Shown piece after piece: positions 5,113 through 31,809 of a stretch of DNA of 32,524 bases; position 1 is the first letter of the stretch; each line of letters opens with the position of its first letter. The notes below the pieces were generated by a model. It made no database searches and had not been told where the DNA came from. It was given only the letters and a program-made list of their open reading frames with translations. The DNA lies in IMG/VR virus record IMGVR_UViG_3300021956_000714, positions 1 through 32,524 of that record; one strand, written 5' to 3'. Origin of the DNA: a virus. Made by a program: the position numbers and the translations under genes.

Positions 5113-7581
5113 ATGAGACTTCGCCGAGGATTTTGGATAGTTATCCCAGCACTTCTTCTGGCATTGTTCGGACCGATTTCGTCAGCAAAGGCAGATACCT
5201 TCACGACCACTGGTGCAAATGATTATTTCTTCACCCTAGAACAACCTCAGTTATTTACCGTTCGCGCATTTGCTCAGCAGTATGGCATTGACTCAATGTT
5301 GTGGCTTTATAACTCCAATAATCAAATGCTTGCCGCAAACGATGACTGGTATGGACTTGACTCATATATCTCAAGAAATCTTGATGCTGGCGTATACAGA
5401 TTGCGAACTGGAGTCTGCTGCGGAGACCCTAATCGTTGGTATGGAACATCGTATGTAATTGATGTCAACATCACCCCATCAAATGCTCCGTCTACAACGA
5501 CAACAACTAGTACTACCAGCACGACAACTACTAGTACAACCACGACTACTACGACCACGACTACTACGACCACGACTACTACGACCACGACTACCACCAC
5601 AACGACGATTCCGCCGACCACAACAACGCTTCCTCCGCTCGCGATGAATACACCAACAAATCTTCGCGCCGTTCCGCAAGACGGGAATGTTTGGCTTTCC
5701 TGGGATGCCCCTCAAGGCGGTAATGGATATGCCTCACCAGAGCGCTATGCGGTATTTTTTAGCGACGACAACTGGGCTACATCATATGCAATTGCTTCGT
5801 ATTCAACATCTGCAACTGTTTACAACTTGACAAATGGAACTCCATATCAATTCAGAGTTCGTGCGGATAATGATACGCTTCATGTTTACTCATCAATGGT
5901 TGAAACATTTACGGTGAGCGCAACACCGATTGCTCCGACATTTAGCGGTGGCGGATGTGGACCGTACAGCAGAATAGTGGTCACTGGTACATCTAACGGT
6001 GCTGTTTGGGGAAGTGGTCCATTCACCGATGATTCAAATTTTGGTGCTGCTGCAGTTCATGCTGGATTGATTTCCGTTGGACAGACAGCAACTATTGAAC
6101 CTTACGGAGTTAATAATTATCCGTACTATGAAGGCTCAACAAGAAATGGAGTTGAAACCGCTACATGGGATAGTGATTGGTGTGGTTATTACATCAAGAT
6201 TGCTGGAACAGCAACACCTAATTTCCAGTATGTAGCGCCAACGACTACTACAACTACCACCACTTCAACTACTACGACTACAGAGCCTCAGACTACTACT
6301 ACTACTACTACTACTACGACAGAGCCTCAGTCCACTACAACCACGGCTGCAACCACGTCAACAACAACAACGACGGAAGTGCCGACAACGACCACACAGC
6401 CAGCGGTTGTAGTCGCCCCTGTAGCGCCTGAGCCAGAGACCACAGTCCCAGAAGAGACCACGACAACCACAGAGGTCCCGCTGCCTGAAGAAACAACCAC
6501 AACAACGACAGAGCCAGAAATGGTAACGACAACAACTGAACCATCCCCTGATACTACAGTTGATATGCAGGAATTAGACCAGTTACCAGATTCGCAGCCC
6601 CTGGATGCTGCAACTTTGAATGCAATTATTGACAATGTAACTTTAGATAAAAATATATCTGCAGCCGAAGCAAGCGCAGTTCTTGTTGATGTATTAAATG
6701 CTGACATACCAGCAGAACAACTACAACAAGTTATGGATGCCGTGTTCAGTGAATCAGCATCTCAAGAACAGGTAGCCGCCGTTGTAAGCAATTTGCTTGA
6801 ACAGGACCTATCAAGTAGCGAACTTGCCGCAGTATTTAATGCCGTATTTGATGCCGACTTATCAGCCGAAGAAACTGTCGCTTTGGCTGGAAAAATCCTT
6901 GAAGCACCATTGAGTACCGAAGAATTCACCACTGTAGTTAATGCAATCTTTGACGAAAAAGTATCAGATGACGTTTTGCTTGGAACATTTGACGCAATTC
7001 TTAGTACGGAATTAGATGGTGAAAAATTTGCCGAAGTAGTTAATGTGCTTGAAAATGCAACTATTAGTAATGACCAAGTATCAAAAGTTGTTGATTTGAT
7101 TATCGGACAAGATGGAGGGGTTTCTAGTGACCAAGCAACAGAGTTGGCGACCAGCGCAAAAGTCCTTGAAAGCATTGACGCATCACAAGCAACTGAAGTG
7201 TTTGACGCGGTCGTCGTTGCCGAGGTCTCGCTGGAAGCGGGGCAAGCGATATCAGAGGCCCTTGCCAACGCCCCAGTAGATGTTAAAAATGCTTTTCAAG
7301 AACAAATAAATGTTTTTGCGGGAGTGTTTGATACCTATGTCCCACTTGGTTCATCAATCAATGTAGGCACAAGAAGGACGCTTGTCGCTGCAGGAGCGGC
7401 TGTAGCAGCCGTTGGAGCCGCTAGTGCACCTACCCCTTCTGGAGGCAATTCTGGCCCTTCTGGAGGCTCTGGAGGCCCTTCTGGAGGCAGTTCAGGTGGT
7501 GGTGGGGATGTTCCAACACCAGATAAGAAAAACAGTGCCAAAAAACAACGCCGTACGCGTCGGCGCGCCCGCGTAAAGTAG
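5113..7581 (+). CDS. Secreted multidomain surface protein (PPC-like, Fn3, LCCL-like, 17-residue repeats)
   Basis: An 822-residue protein with a clear signal peptide (residues 1-28: RLRR, a hydrophobic core, then SSAKAD). Next comes a beta domain resembling bacterial pre-peptidase C-terminal domains (about 29-120), a pure Thr/Ser linker (about 126-175), an Fn3-like domain (about 178-270) and an LCCL-like domain (about 276-365, with WGSGPFTDDSNFGAAAVHAG). After these are a second Thr/Pro/Glu linker, thirteen helical repeats of 17-18 residues (497-721), a hydrophobic alanine-rich segment (about 755-772), a Gly/Ser/Pro stretch and a strongly basic tail. It is built like an actinobacterial cell-surface adhesin and is unusual beside tail and lysis genes. 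It could be a virion decoration, an adhesin or a host-derived gene; function is not established. Confidence 0.75.
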   Translation: MRLRRGFWIVIPALLLALFGPISSAKADTFTTTGANDYFFTLEQPQLFTVRAFAQQYGIDSMLWLYNSNNQMLAANDDWYGLDSYISRNLDAGVYRLRTGVCCGDPNRWYGTSYVIDVNITPSNAPSTTTTTSTTSTTTTSTTTTTTTTTTTTTTTTTTTTTTTTIPPTTTTLPPLAMNTPTNLRAVPQDGNVWLSWDAPQGGNGYASPERYAVFFSDDNWATSYAIASYSTSATVYNLTNGTPYQFRVRADNDTLHVYSSMVETFTVSATPIAPTFSGGGCGPYSRIVVTGTSNGAVWGSGPFTDDSNFGAAAVHAGLISVGQTATIEPYGVNNYPYYEGSTRNGVETATWDSDWCGYYIKIAGTATPNFQYVAPTTTTTTTTSTTTTTEPQTTTTTTTTTTEPQSTTTTAATTSTTTTTEVPTTTTQPAVVVAPVAPEPETTVPEETTTTTEVPLPEETTTTTTEPEMVTTTTEPSPDTTVDMQELDQLPDSQPLDAATLNAIIDNVTLDKNISAAEASAVLVDVLNADIPAEQLQQVMDAVFSESASQEQVAAVVSNLLEQDLSSSELAAVFNAVFDADLSAEETVALAGKILEAPLSTEEFTTVVNAIFDEKVSDDVLLGTFDAILSTELDGEKFAEVVNVLENATISNDQVSKVVDLIIGQDGGVSSDQATELATSAKVLESIDASQATEVFDAVVVAEVSLEAGQAISEALANAPVDVKNAFQEQINVFAGVFDTYVPLGSSINVGTRRTLVAAGAAVAAVGAASAPTPSGGNSGPSGGSGGPSGGSSGGGGDVPTPDKKNSAKKQRRTRRRARVK
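5542..5595 (+). repeat. 15-bp tandem repeat encoding poly-Thr
   Basis: Three exact copies of ACGACTACTACGACC occupy 5542-5556, 5557-5571 and 5572-5586, followed by a partial copy. They encode part of an uninterrupted threonine run. Because the unit is a multiple of three, copy changes would lengthen or shorten the linker without breaking the frame. Confidence 0.85.
6292..6315 (+). repeat. (ACT)8 trinucleotide microsatellite
   Basis: Eight consecutive ACT codons within the second threonine-rich linker of the surface protein. Such a run is prone to slipped-strand length change while keeping the reading frame. Confidence 0.85.
6601..7275 (+). repeat. Tandem 17-residue helical repeats (protein-level)
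   Basis: Read in frame, nine successive units of exactly 17 residues run from 6655 to 7113, for example IPAEQLQQVMDAVFSES, LSSSELAAVFNAVFDAD and LSTEEFTTVVNAIFDEK. They are preceded by an 18-residue unit (6601-6654) and followed, after two glycines, by one 18-residue and two more 17-residue units to 7275. The consensus is roughly hydrophobic-Ser-x-Glu-Glu/Gln-x3-Val-x2-Ala-Val/Ile-Phe/Leu-x-Ala/Glu-Asp. The DNA units have diverged, so this is an old, selected repeat rather than a recent expansion. Confidence 0.85.
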
Positions 7582-12281: not shown

Positions 12282-12308
12282 GCATTACTGCTCATAAGTG
12301 TGTATAGT
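12280..12308 (+). promoter_or_regulatory. Promoter for the tail chaperone gene (leaderless)
   Basis: TTGCAT at 12280-12285 and TATAGT at 12303-12308 are separated by exactly 17 nt. The ATG at 12316 is only 7 nt after the -10 hexamer, so transcription should begin on or next to the start codon. No Shine-Dalgarno is present. The same pair of hexamers with the same spacing occurs at 22727-22755. The -35 box abuts the end of the preceding terminator stem. Confidence 0.7.
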
Positions 12309-12315
12309 TACCCCC

Positions 12316-12846
12316 ATGGATTACACACCAATTATTTTAAAAAATAAAGGTATTGCCTCGGAGTTTGCAAAAGTCAAACAAGTTGAACCACAAGTGTGGG
12401 AACGCGAGTATGACGAAGTTGGCGAAACACTAAAAGAGACAGCATTTATTCGCTTTAGCAACAATATTATTTCTGATATTGAAGACCATTGGGGTTCTTT
12501 AGACCAGTGGCAACAAGCACTTGAAGCACGACCAGTTTCAACACTGCGTCAAACACTTTCTTACGCTCTGAAGAAGCCAGTTGAGGCAGTCGGAGAAATG
12601 ATGTTGGAGGGGCAAACGATGCATTATTCAAATGCAGTCGGTGTTGCTTGGGCGCTTGCCAACGGCGTGGACCCTACCGTAGCGAGTCGGATGCTGAAGC
12701 AGAGCGCCGAACTCGCAGAAGAGCAAAAGAGGCTGCTAAACGAGGCAATAAGCCAAAACAATCAGGAGATGGAAAACTCCCCTGGAAAGTCTGGTACACA
12801 ACCTGGAGTCAAACGGGCCGCTCGTACGAAGAGTTCTGGGAGTTAA
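12316..12846 (+). CDS. Tail assembly chaperone (short form)
   Basis: A 176-residue protein between the tail tube and tape measure genes, the standard position for the chaperone equivalent to lambda gpG. The ATG at 12316 (MDYTPIILKNKG) is preferred to the in-frame GTG at 12298, because the promoter's -10 hexamer lies between them and predicts a transcript start at about 12315. The C-terminal part (from about residue 120) is rich in Ala, Glu and Lys and overlaps a second frame used by the frameshift product. It should bind the tape measure during tail assembly and not appear in the virion. Confidence 0.8.
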   Translation: MDYTPIILKNKGIASEFAKVKQVEPQVWEREYDEVGETLKETAFIRFSNNIISDIEDHWGSLDQWQQALEARPVSTLRQTLSYALKKPVEAVGEMMLEGQTMHYSNAVGVAWALANGVDPTVASRMLKQSAELAEEQKRLLNEAISQNNQEMENSPGKSGTQPGVKRAARTKSSGS

Positions 12847-12953
12847 GTCCAGCACAAGTCAGTGCAGTTTTTGAAGGTGCTGGCTATATGAAACAGAAGT
12901 CAAGCACGGACGACATTATGAATTTTGCTCGTTCAATGGGGCTATCTACATAG
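12316..12953 (+). CDS. Tail assembly chaperone, -1 frameshift long form
   Basis: The -1 frame relative to the chaperone is open through the overlap and continues 107 nt past its stop to TAG at 12951-12953. It contains LPWKVWYTTWSQTGRSYEEF and then WELSPAQVSAVFEGAG, which resembles the second chaperone domain of siphophages. If slippage occurs at 12771-12777 the fusion has about 212 residues. There is no plausible independent start with a ribosome site before the conserved-looking part. This gpG/gpGT strategy is nearly universal in long-tailed phages, which makes the fusion likely even though the slip site is imperfect. Confidence 0.75.
12771..12777 (+). other. Candidate -1 frameshift site of the tail chaperone
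   Basis: G GAA AAC lies in the zero frame shortly before the part of the -1 frame that looks conserved. A second candidate, C CAA AAC, is at 12753-12759. Both share the form N NAA AAC, in which the A-site AAC can re-pair over AAA. Neither is a perfect X XXY YYZ heptamer, so the exact site is uncertain. Confidence 0.45.
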
Positions 12954-13018: not shown

Positions 13019-16000
13019 ATGTCTAACGCGGGCGGCTCAGCAATACCACCACTCCATGTGCAGGTAATTATTTCTGCAACTGGTGCTGGCGCTGCTGCTG
13101 GCGCAATGCGCAATACTAATAATGCGCTTAGCGCAATGGCAAGCCAGTTTACTCGTTCGCAGGTGCCAATTCGTCAAATGGGTGATGCCATGCGGCAGAC
13201 CTCATCTCTAATTAACTACACAATGATTATGCCTCTTGCAAGGCTTGGAACAGCCGCAATTCAGGCATCCAGAAACTTTGAAATGTCAATGAAGAAGATT
13301 CAAGGTCTGGTAGGTCTTTCGGCTAAAGAAGTACAGTCATTTGAAAGAGACATTCTCAAAATGGCTGGAAATGTTGCTCGTTCACCACTTGAACTTGCAG
13401 ACGCTATGTACTTCATTTCATCTGCTGGTATTAGAGGTGCTGAAGCAGTTGATGTTCTTAAAGAATCTGCAAAAGCAGCAGCCGCTGGTCTGGGTGAAAC
13501 AAAAGTTATTGCTGACGCTTTAACTTCAGTAATCAACGCATACGGAGAAGGAAACTACAGTGCAGCAAGGGCTGCTGACGTTTTGACCGCTGCTGTAAAA
13601 GAAGGAAAAGTTGAAGCAGACCAGTTAGCCCCATCTCTAGGTAAAGTTCTTCCTATTGCCGCAACATTCGGCGCGACGTTTGAAGATGTTTCTGCTGGAA
13701 TGGCATCTTTGACTCGTACTGGTACCACAGCAGGAACTGCAGCAATTTATTTGCGTCAAGTTATGTCGCAGTTGCTGAAGCCAGCAAAAGCCGCTAAAGA
13801 TGAATTATATGCTGCTGGAACAAGCGCTGAAGAAGTCCGAAAAAATGTTCAAGAGCATGGTTTGCTTGATGCTCTATCAATGTTGAATGCAAAACTTGGT
13901 GGAACAGATGCAACAGTTGCTGTATCTGGACTGACAAAAGTATTCGGTAACGTGCGAGCACTCCAGGCAGTTCTTTCGTTACTCGGTCCAAACCTTGAAG
14001 AAAACAGAAGAATTTTTGAACAAGTAGGAATGTCCGCTGGCGATGCCGCTGAAGCATTTAGGGTTTATACAGAAACAGCAGATTATAAGTTTAAGCAAGC
14101 AATTTCAAGTTCACAGACTGCGCTCATTGGGCTTGGAAATTCATTAATGCCATTCGCTACTGGTTTAATGCAGATGGCATCAGTTTTGACTGGTGCGGTT
14201 GGTGGATTTTTTAGGCTTGCTCAAGGCACAAGTATTTTATCGCGAGGATTCAATGTTCTACTTAAGGTAATTGGGTCTTTTGCTTTTTCAGTATTTGCTG
14301 GTATGAAAATGGCAAACGGGCTATTCAGAACATGGGGTTCAATGGTCCGACTTGGCGGACACCTACAAACAGTGATTCGTGGTATCACGCAGGGCATCCG
14401 TCTTGGTGGACAAGCAGCACAAGCGTCAACACGAGCATTTGGTGGTTTGACAATGACCACACAGCAAGAATCCATGGCGCTTCAAGAATTAACCTTTGCA
14501 GAAAACGCAAATAATCTAACTCAGCGAGAAGCACTACTTATTGGTGCAAGGAATAACGGAAGTCTTGTTGAACGCAGACTTTTGACAATGGCTGCTGCAA
14601 GAGCGAATAATACAATGAGAATCACAACAGACCAGGCAACTGTTGCAATTGCAAATGCTGGAACAGCAACAGCAACATTTGGAATGAAAGTAATGGCATT
14701 CATGCCAGAAATTTTGGGTGCAATGATGTTGATTGCAACACTTGCATCAATGTTTGGAGCATTCGGTAAAAAGAACGAAGGATTAGACAAAACCGTTAAA
14801 CAACTCGGCGATATGAACACCTTCCTTGGTGACGCCGTAAAAATGGACCAGATTGACGTATCGCTTAATCTAAAACAAAACAAACTCAACTTTACTGGTG
14901 GCGCTCTTGATTCAGATACGAAAAAACAAATTGAAGAAGAACTATCTAAAGATGTTCAGAGTGCAGTAGCCGAGATTGGAAAACGTAATCCTGGTTCCGC
15001 AGAAGCGGCAGCATATGCTGCTTCAGTAATCAAGCGAATGACTGGATTGACTGAAGAGTCAAAGAAATCTTTGATGCTTTGGTTCCAAGATTCATTGTCT
15101 GTAACTCCAGGAATGATTGCGCAAGCAGCCGCTGGGATGGCTCCTCTTGGGCAAGAAATGGATAAAGTTGGTCAACTTGTTCAGGCACAGTTTATAACTG
15201 GGTTCCAGAGAGACTTTGGAAGTTTTACACCAACAGGTGGTCCTGCACCTATTACTGAAGATTATTCAAAACTGTTCCAGGAAATGCTCGCTAACACTAA
15301 AACTGATGTTAATGATGTTAACGCAGTTCTGTCAATGCTATTTGACCAAGGCGAAATTGGAGATGTTGGAGCAAAAGGAAGAACAGTAGCAGCAGTTGTA
15401 ACTGGTCTTGGAGATGAACTTAGTACTTCATTCTCACAAACAAAAAATCTAAATACGTTCCTTTATGGTTTGAAAACAATGGATGGTGCTATAAAAGACA
15501 GCACTTTAAGCACTGAACAACAGGGTCAGGCATTTAAGACATTTACGCAAGGTGCTTTTAAAGAAATTAAAGATATCGGAGGCTTGACAAAGGAGGCATC
15601 TGGAAGTTTTGCAGCGATGTTTGGTAATGCAGATAACCAAAAAGGAATTACTGCATTCTTTACAGAACTTGGAGTTGAGGAAGAAACTGCAAAACAAATA
15701 ACAGGTGAACTTGCTGATGGGTACAAAAACCTTGGAGATGCCACTCCGATTGAAGAGTTTGATGTATTCAATAGAGTAATTCAAGACCACATTGATGCTA
15801 CTGCTAATTCAATAAGCGAAACTGATAGACAAAAAATTGCTATTATGGAACTTGCTGATACATTCGGCACTGGTCTTAATCCTGCAATTCAAGCGCTTGC
15901 AGATGAATATGAAATGGCTACTGGAGCCATTAAACATTTTGAAGAAGGACAAAAAGCAGTTCTTGGGTTAGCCAATGATTTTATTGGTTCTCAAGTTAGC

Positions 16001-18100
16001 CTTGGCGACTCAATCCGTGATGTTAAAAAAGCACTTTCAGAGGCTGGTTCTGGTGGATTAGACCCGTACTCCGAAAAAGGCGGAGCAGCGATAACAAAAC
16101 TTCAGAAGTACAGAGATGCACTTCTTGATACAGCAAACCTTGAAGCGATGGACCCAGCAAAAGGTCTTTCTGTTGCAACTAACACAATTACAGAGGGATA
16201 CCAAAGATTAGTAGCACAAATGGTTTCTGGCGGAAAGATGACAACCGACCAGGCCAAAAAAACACTTGATTCAATTGGATTTAATGTTGCAGAACTTCAA
16301 GGAACCCTAATTGGCGCTGGTGCTGCAACTGAAAAAGATGGTGGGATTGACAAAAATCTACTTAACAAAGTTGCAGAAGGAATTAATGCAAACGGAGCCG
16401 CTGCAGCGACTGATGCTATCCCTGGAATGAAAGCATTTAACGATTCATTGCTACAGCAAATGAAGGATTACTGGGGAATCAAATCTCCTTCAAAACTTGC
16501 AGAAAATAAAATTGGTAAACCTATTACCGATGGTGTTATTAAAGGTGTTTTTAATCCTGATGCAGTAAGAAATCTTGTAGAAAAAATGAAATATGCTGGC
16601 AAAAACGGTGGTGTTGGATTTGTTGAAGGCATGACAGATGGAATGGGAGCATCTGAAAAAGCACTTGCTACTCAGACATCACGACTTGCTGCATTGGCTA
16701 ATTTTTATTTGAAAAATCCAAATGCTGGAACTGGTGCGCAGTTTGGTTCTTCTCCTCCATCTTCAGATATAAACAATCTATTTAACACCGCAGGAGATGC
16801 ATTCGCTAATGCTGGAACTTCTTCAAGCGGTGGTGAGAAGAAGATTGAAACAAAAGCAGAAGCAGCAATGCAAAAGGTTATTGACAAATTTGGCAAGTTT
16901 TCTAATGCATTTGCGGCAATGATTGACAAGGTAACAAAAGATTCAAAATCAGCACTTGACTCAATCGGTGGATATATAAATGCTCAAATTCGTCTTGCAA
17001 ACTCAATGCTTGACCGCCAAAAACTTGTTATTGAACAGCAGGGTCTTGCCGCAGCCGCAGCAAAGGCTGAGCGTGAACGAGCATACGCGGCAACCAAAGT
17101 GGGTTCTAGTCTTGGCGCTCAAGTAACAGATTATGAACTGTCACGAATTGAAGAACTGCAAACTGCATATGAAGAGGCCGCACGCGCTTACGCAATGAAG
17201 CGTGGAACATTTACGGCAATGATTGACGCAGAACAGGCTTTGATGGAGGCTCGTGCTTCTGCATCTGAAGTATCACCAGATGCGATTAAGGCTGAAACTA
17301 GCGTTTTAGATGCAAAACAAGAAGAGAAAAATAAGAATCTTGAACTTGCAAAAGCAACACTTGACATTGTAACTGCCCAAGAAGAACAAGCCGCAACCGC
17401 AATTGACCTTGCTGTGAATATGGACCAAGCAAGGTTGATATTTGCACAGTTTGCCAATGAGGCAATACCTGGAGTTGCTACGAGTATTGATGACCTTGGT
17501 CTCAGGTTAAATGATGCAAATGGAACATTCCAAAGGGCGTTGCACGCATTTGGTGAGACAATATTTGGTTATATCCCAACTGCAGCAACAGAGACAACCA
17601 ACCAATCAGCAGCAACCGATACTTATGTAACTACTCCAATTGCTCCAACGGCGCCAACAACAAACCCAGCGCTGTATACGTCTCCAAACTTTGGTTTAAG
17701 GCCAGATGGAAGTTTCTACAGGTCATTTACTGCTGCGGTAAAAGCGCTTCACCCAAGTTATACGAAGAGCATCACAGAAGCAAAAACTGATTTTTGGAGA
17801 CTCTATCAACTGTATAAGTCAAAGAATATTCCTCTTGCTCGTGGCGGTATTGTCGCAAACGGGCCAATCAATGCCTTAATCGGCGAGAGCGGTCCAGAAG
17901 CAGTAATTCCTCTCCAGGGATACAGCACAAGGATTGCTCTTGAGAAACTGTTTAAGGTCAGTCAAGATAATTCCGCAATGGGCTCATATGGTTCTGGAAA
18001 CAATGTTTATATTACGGTCAATAATCCAGTTGCCGAGACATCTGAGGAGTCAATTGCTCGCCGTATGAAAGCGCTTTCAACCGCTGGTCTATTTAGGTAG
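13019..18100 (+). CDS. Tail tape measure protein
   Basis: The largest gene, 1693 residues. The N-terminal 400 residues match the TP901-type tape measure pattern (FEMSMKKIQGLVGLS, SPLELADAMYFISSAGIRG, then AAIYLRQVMSQL). A hydrophobic segment near 555-580 (MKVMAFMPEILGAMMLIATL) is a typical internal membrane-like region. Ala/Glu/Lys-rich coiled coils follow (about 1330-1490). The C-terminus ends with LARGGIVANGPINALIGESG and then PEAVIPL, a common tape measure ending. At about 1.5 Å per residue the tail would be near 250 nm. No peptidase or lysozyme domain is evident. It sits directly after the chaperone genes and 9 nt before the distal tail gene. Confidence 0.93.
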   Translation: MSNAGGSAIPPLHVQVIISATGAGAAAGAMRNTNNALSAMASQFTRSQVPIRQMGDAMRQTSSLINYTMIMPLARLGTAAIQASRNFEMSMKKIQGLVGLSAKEVQSFERDILKMAGNVARSPLELADAMYFISSAGIRGAEAVDVLKESAKAAAAGLGETKVIADALTSVINAYGEGNYSAARAADVLTAAVKEGKVEADQLAPSLGKVLPIAATFGATFEDVSAGMASLTRTGTTAGTAAIYLRQVMSQLLKPAKAAKDELYAAGTSAEEVRKNVQEHGLLDALSMLNAKLGGTDATVAVSGLTKVFGNVRALQAVLSLLGPNLEENRRIFEQVGMSAGDAAEAFRVYTETADYKFKQAISSSQTALIGLGNSLMPFATGLMQMASVLTGAVGGFFRLAQGTSILSRGFNVLLKVIGSFAFSVFAGMKMANGLFRTWGSMVRLGGHLQTVIRGITQGIRLGGQAAQASTRAFGGLTMTTQQESMALQELTFAENANNLTQREALLIGARNNGSLVERRLLTMAAARANNTMRITTDQATVAIANAGTATATFGMKVMAFMPEILGAMMLIATLASMFGAFGKKNEGLDKTVKQLGDMNTFLGDAVKMDQIDVSLNLKQNKLNFTGGALDSDTKKQIEEELSKDVQSAVAEIGKRNPGSAEAAAYAASVIKRMTGLTEESKKSLMLWFQDSLSVTPGMIAQAAAGMAPLGQEMDKVGQLVQAQFITGFQRDFGSFTPTGGPAPITEDYSKLFQEMLANTKTDVNDVNAVLSMLFDQGEIGDVGAKGRTVAAVVTGLGDELSTSFSQTKNLNTFLYGLKTMDGAIKDSTLSTEQQGQAFKTFTQGAFKEIKDIGGLTKEASGSFAAMFGNADNQKGITAFFTELGVEEETAKQITGELADGYKNLGDATPIEEFDVFNRVIQDHIDATANSISETDRQKIAIMELADTFGTGLNPAIQALADEYEMATGAIKHFEEGQKAVLGLANDFIGSQVSLGDSIRDVKKALSEAGSGGLDPYSEKGGAAITKLQKYRDALLDTANLEAMDPAKGLSVATNTITEGYQRLVAQMVSGGKMTTDQAKKTLDSIGFNVAELQGTLIGAGAATEKDGGIDKNLLNKVAEGINANGAAAATDAIPGMKAFNDSLLQQMKDYWGIKSPSKLAENKIGKPITDGVIKGVFNPDAVRNLVEKMKYAGKNGGVGFVEGMTDGMGASEKALATQTSRLAALANFYLKNPNAGTGAQFGSSPPSSDINNLFNTAGDAFANAGTSSSGGEKKIETKAEAAMQKVIDKFGKFSNAFAAMIDKVTKDSKSALDSIGGYINAQIRLANSMLDRQKLVIEQQGLAAAAAKAERERAYAATKVGSSLGAQVTDYELSRIEELQTAYEEAARAYAMKRGTFTAMIDAEQALMEARASASEVSPDAIKAETSVLDAKQEEKNKNLELAKATLDIVTAQEEQAATAIDLAVNMDQARLIFAQFANEAIPGVATSIDDLGLRLNDANGTFQRALHAFGETIFGYIPTAATETTNQSAATDTYVTTPIAPTAPTTNPALYTSPNFGLRPDGSFYRSFTAAVKALHPSYTKSITEAKTDFWRLYQLYKSKNIPLARGGIVANGPINALIGESGPEAVIPLQGYSTRIALEKLFKVSQDNSAMGSYGSGNNVYITVNNPVAETSEESIARRMKALSTAGLFR

Positions 18101-26070: not shown

Positions 26071-27390
26071 ATGGAAGAGCAGATTAAAGTAGACACTGAG
26101 ATTGTTGACATCTCTACCCTAAAGTCGTACCACCAAAACCCCCGCCGTGGAGATGTTGAGGCGATTGCTAAATCCCTTGAGGTTAATGGTCAGTATAAGC
26201 CAATCGTTGTAAATAGGGCTGACAATTCAATACTTGCTGGAAACCATACATGGCGCGCTGCTCGCAGCCTTGGCTGGACAAAGATTGCGGTTTCCTGGGT
26301 TGACGTTAATGAACACGAAGCACAAAAGATTGTTCTTGCTGATAACAGAACTTCTGATGGCTCATCTTACGATGATTTTAAATTACTAGAACTATTGCAG
26401 TCTTTGCCCACTCTTGATGGAACTGGATTCAATCAAGTTGATGTTGACCAACTCCAATCCCTTTTAGACGGTGCTGGAGAATTCACCGCTCCAGAAACAG
26501 AGCGAACAGGCAAAGTCGGAGAAGAGATTCGCGTCTGTGTCGGCTCATACCGAATCATGGTTGACGACGATGTTTACGAACATTGGGCAAGCGACGTTAT
26601 GAAAGCCTATGGCGACGATGATGCAGTAGTTGTAGAACTAAAGCGCCGACTCAACCTTAGCGGAGCAGTTGCTAGTCCACCAAAGCCGCGCAAAAAGACA
26701 ATCCGCAAAAAGCCAGTAGAGAAGTCTGGAATGAAGTCAGTTATTGCTGGAACTACGAATGTTGATATCAACAGCGTATTTCCGTACCCAATGAATGCTC
26801 GTCAGGGAGATATCGGTGCAATTGCTGAAAGCCTGCGAGAGAACGGTCAATTCCGACCAATCGTCGTTAGCAATTCAGATAATTCTATTCTTGTTGGCAA
26901 CCATACTTGGAAAGCCGCAAAGATGCTGGGCTGGAAAGAAATCGCTGCAACATTTGTTGATGTTGACGATGAAGCGGCAGCGCGAATTGTTCTTGCTGAT
27001 AATAAGACTGCAGACTTAGGAACATACGACCATGTTGAACTAGCAGAGATGCTTCGTGGCATGACCTCGTTTGCTGGAACTGGCTATGACGGAGACGCAG
27101 TAGATGACCTTATGCGTGATGTTGCTGGTTGGGGAATCAAAGATGCCCCAGTTAAAGAAGAGGATGATGATGTACAGCGCAATATCACCTCTGTTATTGG
27201 AAGATGGGAATTCAAGTTTATTCGTGAGCAATTTGATGCATGGGAAGAAGAAATGTTTAAGGCATTTGGTTTCTCCTATGAAGAAGTCTGTGGCGGCATG
27301 GCGGAGATGCTGAATATTCCAGATGATTCATGGGTCAGCACTCGTCAACGTCGCTCTAAGAGAAAGAGCGCTCGCCGAACAGAGCAATGA
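26071..27390 (+). CDS. Tandem double ParB/Srx-fold protein
   Basis: A 439-residue protein made of two copies of one unit. Each has a ParB-type domain: DISTLKSYHQNPRRGDVEAI with AGNHTWRAA (GNHT at 57-60), and DINSVFPYPMNARQGDIGAI with VGNHTWKAA (GNHT at 276-279). Each is followed by the same DNRTSDG/DNKTADL segment and a tail domain (VGSYRIMV...WASDVMKAYG against IGRWEFKF...WEEEMFKAFG). A Lys/Arg/Pro-rich linker (about 208-222) joins them. ParB-fold proteins bind DNA, hydrolyse CTP or act as nucleases; phage copies are often tied to DNA modification. The stop overlaps the next gene's ATG by 4 nt. Confidence 0.85.
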   Translation: MEEQIKVDTEIVDISTLKSYHQNPRRGDVEAIAKSLEVNGQYKPIVVNRADNSILAGNHTWRAARSLGWTKIAVSWVDVNEHEAQKIVLADNRTSDGSSYDDFKLLELLQSLPTLDGTGFNQVDVDQLQSLLDGAGEFTAPETERTGKVGEEIRVCVGSYRIMVDDDVYEHWASDVMKAYGDDDAVVVELKRRLNLSGAVASPPKPRKKTIRKKPVEKSGMKSVIAGTTNVDINSVFPYPMNARQGDIGAIAESLRENGQFRPIVVSNSDNSILVGNHTWKAAKMLGWKEIAATFVDVDDEAAARIVLADNKTADLGTYDHVELAEMLRGMTSFAGTGYDGDAVDDLMRDVAGWGIKDAPVKEEDDDVQRNITSVIGRWEFKFIREQFDAWEEEMFKAFGFSYEEVCGGMAEMLNIPDDSWVSTRQRRSKRKSARRTEQ

Positions 27391-28934
27391 AGCCAAAATT
27401 AGTTCCGATTGACGAACTGAGACCGTCCGCCTATAACCCAAGAAAGGCTGACCCAGAACGCCTGAATATGGTTGAACTCTCCCTGCGCAAGTTTGGCTGG
27501 CTACTACCCATCTATGCAGACGCCAATGGGGAGATTCTAAGTGGCCACCAGAGGCACCTAGTAGCCTCCAGGATGGGCGCAAAGATGGTTCCTGTGGTTA
27601 GGACACCCGAAATGCCCGTAGAGCGTCGTATGGGCATAAATGTTCTTTACAACCGTGCTACAAATGATGTTTACAAGAACCAGTCATCTAAGGATATGAG
27701 GGAACAACTCTTGTCAATGGACGGACTTTTTGACAAGATTTCATCCCTTCCAGATATTGAAGTTGATACCCCAGAGTGGTATCCAGTGATGAAACTAAAG
27801 CCAGTTTCAGTTCTTCGCTTAATGAAATTAAATGAAAGATGGACTGAAAATCATGCAATAATGATGGCTGGTCAATTCCGCTCAAAGGGTCTTCCAGCGA
27901 TGCCGATTGTCTGCACACCACAAAATGAAGTGCTCAATGGTCGTGCTCGTTTGACATTTTCGGCAATGGAGAATGTTGACTTCATTGACTGCGTAATTGT
28001 TCCAGAGAACGTCAAAGAAGAAGTTAAAGCAATGATGAATCTTCTTTCAATGGACTTTGATATTCAGGAACGATATGCAGACCTACTCCGTCATAACTCT
28101 TTTAGACGCAGAAATCAAAAACAAACCATTCTCACTCCAACTTTTCTAGAGGATTTTTTACGGAACTTTGTATCTTCTGGAAATCGTAATGGTGCGTTTC
28201 ATCTTGACGACCCAAAGCATATTGAGTTATGGAAGAAGTACTACGGGAATACGGTAATTGATTTTGGTGCTGGGCTTTGCGATAAAACGGAAATATTGAA
28301 AAATATGGGAGTTGATGCAATTCCATTTGAGCCATTCTTCCTGGGGCCAGATAATGAAACAATTGATACCGATGGAGCAAGAACGGTTACTGCGCGATTC
28401 TTGGAAAGAGTTGCGGATGGAACCCAGTGGACTTCAATATTTATGTCCAGTGTTTTCAATAGCATTCCGTTTTATCAAGACAGATTGCATGTTGTGAATC
28501 TGATTGCTGCACTTTGTTCTCCAAGCACAAAGTTCTACACATCTGCAATTTCAAGCGAATCAGACCGCTGGCATAACCACGCTCAGGGCGATATCAAGAA
28601 GGGGCACGACACGATTAGCGGTGGTTTTCCACTTGACTATGAGCCAAGAATTATCGTTGCCGATGTCGCGGCAAAGCCAAAAGTTCAGAAGTATCACACT
28701 CCAATTGAATTCAAGGAACTTGTCCTTAACGGTTTTAAAACAGTTGAAGTATTCAATACGGCAAAAAACGGTCTAGTTCAAGCCGTTGCATCAAATCCGC
28801 GTACGATTAGCACAGAAGATTTAATCGCGGCAATTGAATTTGAGTTTGATTTACCACATCCTGGCGGGAAAAGGCTCGGAATGGTTAATGAAGCCAAAAA
28901 AGCATTCTCGCAAAGATTAGGAGTGAGTTTATGA
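27387..28934 (+). CDS. ParB domain fused to a methyltransferase-like domain
   Basis: A 515-residue protein. Residues 1-95 are a ParB-type domain (VPIDELRPSAYNPRKADPER, then LSGHQRHLVASRMGAKMVPV with the GHQR motif at 53-56). The middle (about 95-270) is helical and unassigned. Residues about 288-430 look like a Rossmann methyltransferase: TVIDFGAGLCDKTEILKNMG for SAM binding, then IPFEPF, then SIFMSSVFNSIPF where motif IV would lie. No DPPY or PC catalytic motif of the classical DNA methylases is apparent, so the target is unclear. It is coupled to genes on both sides by 4-nt overlaps. Confidence 0.75.
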   Translation: MKPKLVPIDELRPSAYNPRKADPERLNMVELSLRKFGWLLPIYADANGEILSGHQRHLVASRMGAKMVPVVRTPEMPVERRMGINVLYNRATNDVYKNQSSKDMREQLLSMDGLFDKISSLPDIEVDTPEWYPVMKLKPVSVLRLMKLNERWTENHAIMMAGQFRSKGLPAMPIVCTPQNEVLNGRARLTFSAMENVDFIDCVIVPENVKEEVKAMMNLLSMDFDIQERYADLLRHNSFRRRNQKQTILTPTFLEDFLRNFVSSGNRNGAFHLDDPKHIELWKKYYGNTVIDFGAGLCDKTEILKNMGVDAIPFEPFFLGPDNETIDTDGARTVTARFLERVADGTQWTSIFMSSVFNSIPFYQDRLHVVNLIAALCSPSTKFYTSAISSESDRWHNHAQGDIKKGHDTISGGFPLDYEPRIIVADVAAKPKVQKYHTPIEFKELVLNGFKTVEVFNTAKNGLVQAVASNPRTISTEDLIAAIEFEFDLPHPGGKRLGMVNEAKKAFSQRLGVSL

Positions 28935-30031: not shown

Positions 30032-30316
30032 ATGATTGAGTCAAAGTTAAAGGAAACCCTTCAGGAAGTTGACCCAGTAAAGAGGGCTAAAAAACTTCAC
30101 TCAGAAATGCTCCCAGCAGTTGCTGAAGTTCGTCGCCAAATTATTGAGGCACGCGCACTGGCGATTAAAGAGTCTTGTGAATTTGGTGGACCAGATAAAG
30201 ATGGTCTATCATATTTTGAAATTGCAGAAGAATTAAAAGTTTCTAAACCACTGATTCAACAGATGGTTGCTCTTGCGCGCAAAATTATTGCTGGTGGAAG
30301 GGCACCATTAGAATGA
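30032..30316 (+). CDS. Helix-turn-helix DNA-binding protein, 94 aa
   Basis: The C-terminal half has LSYFEIAEELKVSKPLIQQM, then VALARKI, a sigma-70-region-4-like or MerR-like HTH in which EIAEELKVS is the first helix and turn and KPLIQQMVALA the recognition helix. The N-terminal half is a charged helix (KLKETLQEVDPVKRAKKLHS). Similar short HTH proteins are frequent in actinophage replication regions. The ATG follows the RusA-like stop by 2 nt and its own stop overlaps the next ATG by 4 nt. A transcriptional role is likely but untested. Confidence 0.7.
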   Translation: MIESKLKETLQEVDPVKRAKKLHSEMLPAVAEVRRQIIEARALAIKESCEFGGPDKDGLSYFEIAEELKVSKPLIQQMVALARKIIAGGRAPLE

Positions 30317-30524: not shown

Positions 30525-30749
30525 ATGCAAGAACAAAATCCATACGAAAATCAGCATCGTCTCCTCAAAGCAGTAAGAATTGTTGATGCACTTGAAGAAA
30601 TTGGTGTATCACTACAAACTTCAAGACAGTTTGACAAGAAGCAAAGAATTGCAATTGCTGCACATATTGAATCTGGACCACCTTCAGACGAAACGTGGGA
30701 CATAGTTTGTAGTCTCTACGAGAAACGAGTCTCCGCCCCTTTTCTGTAG
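30525..30749 (+). CDS. Zero-frame product of a -1 frameshift pair, 74 aa
   Basis: The ATG at 30525 (MQEQNPYENQHRLL) is preceded by gagggaagag, a fair ribosome site; an in-frame TTG at 30513 is less likely. The protein is helical and charged with VRIVDALEEIGVSLQT and KKQRIAIAAHIESG. It ends at TAG 30747-30749, four nt after a perfect slippery heptamer. The family is not recognised. As read without slippage, the product stops shortly after VSAPFL. See the fusion entry for the longer form. Confidence 0.65.
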   Translation: MQEQNPYENQHRLLKAVRIVDALEEIGVSLQTSRQFDKKQRIAIAAHIESGPPSDETWDIVCSLYEKRVSAPFL

Positions 30750-30979
30750 AGGGCGATGACCCAAAATACTGGCAGCATGTTTATGCAACTGCCGTAGTTA
30801 TCGCCCAGATACTTCAATCAAACGCAGTAGACCCACAAGAATGTCAGGAGTTTAATCAGTCCAACATTCACCAGATTTTTCTATCACAGCGGATTTTTAC
30901 TTTTGATGAGAGTTTGATATTCTCTATCGCAGTGAAACTCTTGGAAGAGCGTCATAATTACACATACAAGACAAACTAA
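30525..30979 (+). CDS. -1 frameshift fusion protein, about 151 aa
   Basis: The -1 frame is open from after 30712 to TAA at 30977-30979 and contains no ATG, GTG or TTG start in its first two-thirds, so it cannot easily be translated alone. Slippage at CCCTTTT (30737-30743) joins 73 zero-frame residues to 78 more: SVEGDDPKYWQHVYATAVVI, then AQILQSNAVDPQECQEFN, RIFTFDESLIF and a terminal ERHNYTYKTN. The frame ends 10 nt before the WhiB start and fills what would otherwise be a 240-nt gap in a dense operon. The alternative is a one-base sequencing error in the CCCCTTTT run. Confidence 0.65.
30737..30806 (+). other. -1 frameshift signal: CCCTTTT heptamer plus downstream stem
   Basis: C CCT TTT at 30737-30743 is a canonical X XXY YYZ heptamer in the zero frame. 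After a 7-nt spacer comes GGGCGAT (30751-30757), which pairs with ATCGCCC (30800-30806). Inside this loop, GGCA (30771-30774) can pair with TGCC (30790-30793) and GCAT (30775-30778) with ATGC (30783-30786). The spacing is what a stimulatory stem or pseudoknot needs. Confidence 0.65.
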
Positions 30980-30989
30980 TTGGAGAAAA

Positions 30990-31385
30990 ATGACAATTGA
31001 TACCTGCAGCCGAATTCAGCGTTCAATTATGTTCGTTGATAGGACAACAGCACCATTGCCACCAAGGGGTGGAGAATGTGAGGGGAAAGATACAAGTTGG
31101 TGGTTTCCAGGATTTGGCGCAAATAAGGCAGAAAGAATAAATAATGACCACGCAATCAGAATGTGCCGTCAGTGCCCAGTTCGCTTAAATTGCTTGCAGT
31201 ATGCCCTTGAATGGGAAGCATTTGGTATCTGGGGTGGTTTTACAGAACGTCAAAGAGACTTTATTCGGAAGCGTAAAGGAATTCTTCAGCAGAGAAAAGC
31301 CCTCGCGCAATCACGGGCAGATAAGTCCTATGATAGAACTTTCACAAATGACGATAAGCGCTGGCTAATAAAGAACGGATATTAA
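30990..31385 (+). CDS. WhiB-family Fe-S transcriptional regulator
   Basis: A 131-residue protein with the four cysteines of WhiB proteins: one in RGGEC (residue 30), then C-x2-C in MCRQCPVRLNC plus the third cysteine of that run, which together hold a [4Fe-4S] cluster. These are followed by the GIWGGFTE turn and a basic tail (RQRDFIRKRKG) that contacts DNA. DTSWWFPG near the first Cys is typical. WhiB proteins occur in Actinobacteria and their phages, which anchors the host call; they act by binding the principal sigma factor. A ggag ribosome site is placed 8 nt before the ATG. It follows the frameshift gene by 10 nt. Confidence 0.92.
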   Translation: MTIDTCSRIQRSIMFVDRTTAPLPPRGGECEGKDTSWWFPGFGANKAERINNDHAIRMCRQCPVRLNCLQYALEWEAFGIWGGFTERQRDFIRKRKGILQQRKALAQSRADKSYDRTFTNDDKRWLIKNGY

Positions 31386-31386
31386 A

Positions 31387-31809
31387 ATGCCACTTCACAA
31401 TCACTTGCTATTGAATGGGTACATGAACAATCCTCCCATGGATAAAGAGGCTGTCATGTCATGGCTTGAAGACCTCGTTGCTGAAATCGGTATGAAAGTT
31501 GCTGCTGGCCCAATCGCTTCATATGTCACCAAAGAAGGAAATCGCGGCATGACCGTTGGTTGTCTAATTGAGACATCGCATATTGCAATGCATGTTTGGG
31601 ATGAGACAACTCCATCGTTTGTCCAGTTTGACCTTTACACATGCTCAACCCTTCCAACTGAAGGTGTTATCCGCAATCTTGTAGATAACTTTGGCCTACA
31701 TAACTACGTTCACATGGTTCTTGAGCGCTCAGAAGGCTTCAATGTGGTGTCTTCTGATACATCAGCCATAGTTGAGAGTGAATTCCCACAAGATACGCTA
31801 CCTTTTTAG
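31387..31809 (+). CDS. S-adenosylmethionine decarboxylase (SpeD)-like protein
   Basis: A 140-residue homologue of prokaryotic AdoMetDC. HNHLLLNGY opens the fold, GMTVGCLIETSHIAMHVWDE spans the self-processing site, and FDLYTCSTLP holds the expected Cys86. Canonical enzymes cleave between Glu and Ser of AESH to make a pyruvoyl group from Ser; here the sequence is Glu62-Thr63-Ser64-His65, so Ser64 is kept but the residue before it is Thr. His65 and His69 are retained. It may be an active AdoMetDC, a phage variant that decarboxylates another amino acid (I recall ornithine and arginine decarboxylases reported among such homologues), or a protein with altered processing. Confidence 0.8.
   Translation: MPLHNHLLLNGYMNNPPMDKEAVMSWLEDLVAEIGMKVAAGPIASYVTKEGNRGMTVGCLIETSHIAMHVWDETTPSFVQFDLYTCSTLPTEGVIRNLVDNFGLHNYVHMVLERSEGFNVVSSDTSAIVESEFPQDTLPF

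Follow-up and report, generated by a model that had tools for sequence, protein, structure and literature searches.

We identified a gene at positions 30525 to 30979 of a viral sequence record (IMG/VR record IMGVR_UViG_3300021956_000714; its full 32,524 nucleotides are referred to here as the window) that, with high confidence, represents a single gene whose expression involves programmed -1 ribosomal frameshifting. This is the best explanation for a frame break conserved among relatives, slippery heptamers that have been exchanged, compensatory changes in a downstream stem and purifying selection in both reading frames. Judged from these sequence comparisons, the mechanism is of the known bacterial -1 type, and the gene family is a new, well conserved, non-tail family.

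The zero-frame open reading frame (ORF; 30525..30749, plus strand) begins with an ATG preceded by GAGGGAAGAG, encodes 74 amino acids and ends in the codons GCC CCT TTT CTG TAG. It contains, in frame, the slippery heptamer C CCT TTT (30737..30743, plus strand), and the stop codon TAG (30747..30749) follows one codon past it. A 7-nt spacer, CTGTAGA (30744..30750), separates the heptamer from a predicted stem-loop. The open stretch of the -1 frame extends from 30713 to a stop codon ending at 30979; counted from the heptamer (30737..30979, plus strand) this frame comprises 80 sense codons, 78 codons lie beyond the heptamer, and the fusion is 151 amino acids long. There is no ATG, GTG or TTG in the -1 frame within 150 nt after the heptamer, the earliest being a TTG about 60 codons in, and no start codon upstream within the window's open -1 frame. 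The C-terminal half (C half) appears to be reached only via the shift. The initial annotation had described an in-frame CCCTTTT with the zero frame stopping right after it, and a -1 frame of 78 codons that lacks its own start and reaches up to the gene for WhiB. These features were all recovered, with WhiB starting at 30990. Matches to XXXYYYZ (Y = A/T) occur in frame 36 times in the plus-strand ORFs of the window, and the heptamer at 30737 is alone among them in combining a zero-frame stop within three codons with a long (80-codon) open -1 frame. The probability of 80 open codons is 0.005 under the local base composition.

The 3' stem-loop (30751..30806, plus strand) consists of a 10-bp stem (30751-30760/30797-30806) and an inner helix (30767-30773/30791-30796). 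A 7-bp stem (30751-30757/30800-30806) had originally been proposed 7 nt after the heptamer; the spacer length holds and the stem is longer, so that heptamer, spacer and structure are all present, as had been claimed. The minimum free energy of the predicted fold is -27.9 kcal/mol, with z-scores of -3.9 on 90 nt and -4.45 on 77 nt, and none of 200 shuffles matched its stability. Every sequence of the window clade, and L027, can form the outer stem (99% of cells paired in six sequences), and two stem pairs are altered on both sides among these six: one is G-C or A-U, the other C-G, U-G or U-A. The compensatory changes are G-C to A-U in L005/L007 (that is, L017/L018) and C-G to U-A in L027; L003 and L004 carry a G-U pair. 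Sliding the partner strand by 1-3 columns led to loss of pairing. The covariation is modest with only six sequences, as 14 of 500 shuffles reach its score. Synonymous differences amount to 23% in the stretch from heptamer to stem, versus 33-36% elsewhere.

Scans with single proteins, two-sequence alignments and the upstream helix-turn-helix (HTH) protein revealed relatives in 14 IMG/VR contigs from other assemblies (L014-L027), down to about 45% identity. Together with the window, these represent 12 different fusion proteins. An exact-peptide scan using the window's C half alone gave no match, and alignments were needed; because the scans rely on short peptide patterns, very distant relatives may be missed. 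The N-terminal half (N half) is 41-73% identical to relatives in the 14 contigs, and the C half 46-83% identical across the half. Scans with the two halves converged on the same 14 contigs, so that no contig with one half only was seen; both halves always co-occur, and the six contigs that were searched along their full length have a single copy of each. In all 14 relatives the break falls at the same codon, with the C half in the -1 frame after the N half. When the fusions of all 15 records are read across the shift and aligned, the junction is free of gaps. Scans of bacterial genome contigs with the gene found no relative. The more distant contigs L028-L035 encode an HTH neighbor 50-57% identical, but the frameshift gene was not detectable in them; a RusA-like neighbor is also present in those that were checked.

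Gene order around the locus is mostly kept, in the sequence ParB-like protein, methyltransferase, RusA-like protein, HTH protein, membrane protein, frameshift gene, WhiB and S-adenosylmethionine (AdoMet) decarboxylase. The HTH/sigma-r4-like protein (30032..30316, plus strand) is the conserved neighbor that served as bait for distant relatives. The next gene after the frameshift gene, also a conserved neighbor, encodes a WhiB-like regulator (30990..31385, plus strand; Pfam Whib, 7.9e-15), and the AdoMet decarboxylase lies beside it (31387-31809; Pfam AdoMet_dc, 1.1e-12) and was found in the majority of the related phages that were compared. The decarboxylase and the small membrane protein were recognisable by similarity in some contigs but not in all. 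The presence of WhiB and the type of contig lead us to infer freshwater Actinobacteria as the hosts. Elsewhere in the window, two ParB-like ORFs occur in succession (26071-28934), the first of which (26071-27390) has a similar N-terminal motif twice, suggesting an internal duplication. An 822-amino-acid ORF (5113-7581) whose start is signal-like and which has long runs rich in Thr, located beside glycosyltransferase- and methyltransferase-like genes, is likely to encode a phage surface or secreted repeat protein.

The slippery site takes four forms: CCCTTTT in the window and L014, AAATTTT in L015-L018, CCCTTTA in L019-L026 and GCCTTTT in L027. The first three satisfy the published consensus X XXY YYZ, with Y = A/U (PMC10885494), and GCCTTTT departs from it at the first base. 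The homologue comparison proposed in the initial annotation thus gave a break at the same codon in all 14 contigs, with a canonical heptamer in 13 of them. At least three site changes are required on the tree, and the AAATTTT and CCCTTTA groups each fall on one side of a supported branch. The residues encoded at the site vary (Pro/Asn and Phe/Leu) while the XXXYYYZ pattern is kept, which argues for selection on the nucleotide pattern. No other single argument for ribosomal frameshifting is, in our view, as strong as this apparent selection. The zero-frame stop is TAG in five near relatives and TAA in L027, and lies about 20 codons later in the CCCTTTA clade, where the short product has 92-93 amino acids. 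Fusions range from 151 to 168 amino acids across the family.

The stimulatory elements also seem to differ between clades. For the CCCTTTA clade, shuffled sequences are as stable as the RNA 3' of the site. This result and the GCCTTTT of L027 are among the points that we count against frameshifting. A conserved hairpin in the CCCTTTA clade (GGCGGCAGCGC...GCGCATGTACGCC) was considered as a stimulator and rejected, being no better than shuffles; the low synonymous change around it can be attributed to the overlap of two frames. The same clade (L019-L026) has a Shine-Dalgarno (SD)-like AAAGAGGGTGG upstream of the heptamer (for example, L024:4677-4689). For AAAGAGGGTGGT, directly 5' of the CCCTTTA heptamer, the predicted anti-SD pairing is -8.1 kcal/mol, within the best 1-4% of local stretches. 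AGG is used by all six sequences at this stretch, and accounts for 11% of Arg codons there. L027 also has AAGAGGAAA upstream of its slippery site. A programmed site is expected to have a stimulatory structure 5-9 nt downstream and/or an upstream SD; the window clade and L027 have the stem, and the CCCTTTA clade has the SD-like stretch. In dnaX and many IS elements, an SD upstream of the site is an established stimulator (PMC5009743). The stimulator may have been exchanged between clades, a 3' stem-loop in one and a 5' SD-like sequence in another.

We considered whether an indel had entered the CCCCTTTT run during sequencing or assembly, or whether the gene is a pseudogene in decay after a recent frameshift mutation. 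The C/T run is a plausible site of error and the protein is an orphan, but the 14 other contigs are broken at the same codon, including relatives without the long run (CCCTTTA and AAATTTT), and the rate of nonsynonymous change (dN) is far below that of synonymous change (dS) in both frames. Both an indel confined to one assembly and an uninterrupted homologue without a heptamer were looked for, and neither was seen. The signal is kept with exchanged slippery letters in all 15 sequences and is thus very probably real, and the 14 further contigs that conserve it dispel what doubt remained about the site; we regard the probability of an error or a pseudogene as negligible.

Two readings accept the frame arrangement and explain it otherwise. 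The halves could be separate proteins, with translation of the C half beginning independently, by reinitiation or coupling once the zero-frame stop has been reached. The stop codon TAG is nearby, an ATG lies 42 nt into the -1 frame in the CCCTTTA clade and a TTG lies 42 nt before the heptamer in the AAATTTT clade, and the SD-like AAAGAGGGTGG could act in initiation. However, these alternative starts differ by clade, with no position common to them, the window lacks any start in the corresponding region, and retention of XXXYYYZ despite codon changes would be left unexplained. This reading is very improbable. Transcriptional slippage at the run, yielding length-altered mRNAs that are each read in one frame, would have the same protein outcome and is known for other bacterial genes (PMC5009743). 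Against it, the runs comprise just 3-4 identical bases (CCC, TTT or AAA), a downstream stem is not expected, and it is the two-codon re-pairing pattern that is conserved and not the run length. We give slippage of the polymerase hardly any weight.

Under programmed ribosomal frameshifting, we infer that the ribosome shifts here at some frequency. Most ribosomes would translate from the ATG at 30525 to the TAG at 30749 and produce the 74-amino-acid helical protein. A fraction would pause at C CCT TTT owing to the stem-loop 7 nt downstream, whereupon tRNA-Pro and tRNA-Phe could re-pair one base back, on CCC TTT. The shifted ribosomes would then read 78 more codons to complete the 151-amino-acid fusion.

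Both halves are under purifying selection, as dN is well below dS in each, measured in its own frame (in the -1 frame, dN is 0.13 and dS is 2.7 between the window and L014). AlphaFold models built from the family alignments predict four helices in the N-terminal unit (N unit; residues 6-26, 30-34, 38-47 and 55-70; pLDDT 80) and four in the C-terminal unit (C unit; 9-28, 33-38, 41-50 and 58-79; pLDDT 87), and the helix patterns of these predicted models match at an offset of about 3. An hhalign comparison placed N-unit residues 8-50 onto C-unit residues 11-53 without gaps and in the same register, at a non-significant E of 0.058. Sequence similarity between the N and C units over the family was not above that of column shuffles (z 0.14). 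Among the 50 best viral fold matches of each unit, eight targets are common to both, all with E > 0.5. Fold searches gave best Z scores of 4.9 for the N unit (the C-terminal part of HAT1) and 2.7 for the C unit, and E > 0.8 in the viral library, all of them at the level of common helical bundles. A tandem duplication of one four-helix unit is plausible from the models but unproved.

Neither half gave anything beyond chance in PHROGs, Pfam, NCBIfam, PADLOC, PDB sequences or INPHARED phages (tblastn), in agreement with the earlier description of the product as unrecognised. An Rfam search likewise gave nothing beyond chance, a plasmid tblastn search with the N half gave no match, and we found no published account of the gene in the literature. 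Specifically for tail chaperone families, the C half of 11 members had no PHROG or Pfam match at E 0.1, and the N half of the 11 members had only chance-level Pfam matches, to other families.

Since the same four-helix unit is predicted in both halves, the shift may set the ratio of one-unit to two-unit protein, although the models do no more than suggest this. We tentatively propose, at somewhat less than even probability, that the gene is a valency switch, in which a tandemly duplicated helical domain is made as a one- and two-unit protein in a fixed ratio, with a regulatory role next to WhiB, and in which heptamer and stimulator were exchanged while the shift was kept. Alternatively, the shift is real and the 74-amino-acid product a mere regulatory by-product, the fusion being the sole functional protein whose amount frameshifting throttles. 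In favor of this, the zero frame of the window clade ends almost directly past the heptamer, and conservation between the window and AAATTTT clades is higher for the C unit (83%) than for the N unit (62%). Yet the N unit is predicted to fold alone, the end of the short product is conserved, and in one clade this product has an 18-19-residue longer tail under two-frame constraint. We consider the by-product reading less likely than not. We speculate that the product is a regulatory or adaptor protein of a non-virion module beside WhiB.

The best-known phage frameshift is that of the lambda-type tail chaperone G/GT (Xu, Hendrix and Duda 2004; reviewed in PMC5009743), which likewise combines a -1 shift late in a small ORF, a short and a minor C-extended product, and a canonical heptamer. 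In contrast, the gene studied here is flanked by WhiB and the HTH/membrane protein pair; it is distant from the tape measure-like ORF (13019-18100), not just upstream of it, and has no sequence match to the chaperone families. We therefore rejected it as a tail chaperone, and its placement outside the tail module, as originally noted, stands. Directly before the tape measure-like ORF are overlapping ORFs (12298-12846, with a -1 frame open at 12585-12953). This pair (12298-12953) is a candidate for the expected tail-chaperone frameshift, with T GGA AAG (12783-12789) as a non-canonical site.

The dnaX gene (tau/gamma) resembles the window gene in its heptamer with a 3' stem-loop and/or 5' SD stimulator and, in some bacteria, in a zero-frame stop directly past the shift site (PMC5009743). 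The proteins are unrelated, and the E. coli dnaX shift shortens the product whereas the shift in the window lengthens it. Frameshifts in phage genes other than tail chaperones include those of capsid/tail proteins of A2, T3/T7 and a Listeria phage, and A2 cro in E. coli (PMC5009743); one was also inferred for a gut-phage reverse transcriptase (PMC8008677). Of the 2476 joined genes annotated in SEA-PHAGES, tail chaperones account for 2397 and hypothetical genes for 79 (PMC10885494). Non-tail frameshifts are thus a minority though not unheard of, consistent with the initial statement that they are uncommon. The window gene is similar in being shifted outside the chaperones. It differs in that the known products are mostly virion proteins or enzymes, whereas this family is uncharacterised and has kept its shift across divergent genomes with an exchanged heptamer.

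The relatives form a natural experiment, in which a single shift position is combined with four slippery sequences and, it seems, two types of stimulator. They add an uncharacterised family of proteins whose gene would be split or cut short by standard gene callers and is located in a non-virion regulatory region of apparent freshwater actinobacterial phages. The conserved arrangement indicates that it matters in what ratio the two products are made, or that both are made at all; as the shift is kept across wide divergence, it is evidently their ratio that is of importance to these phages.
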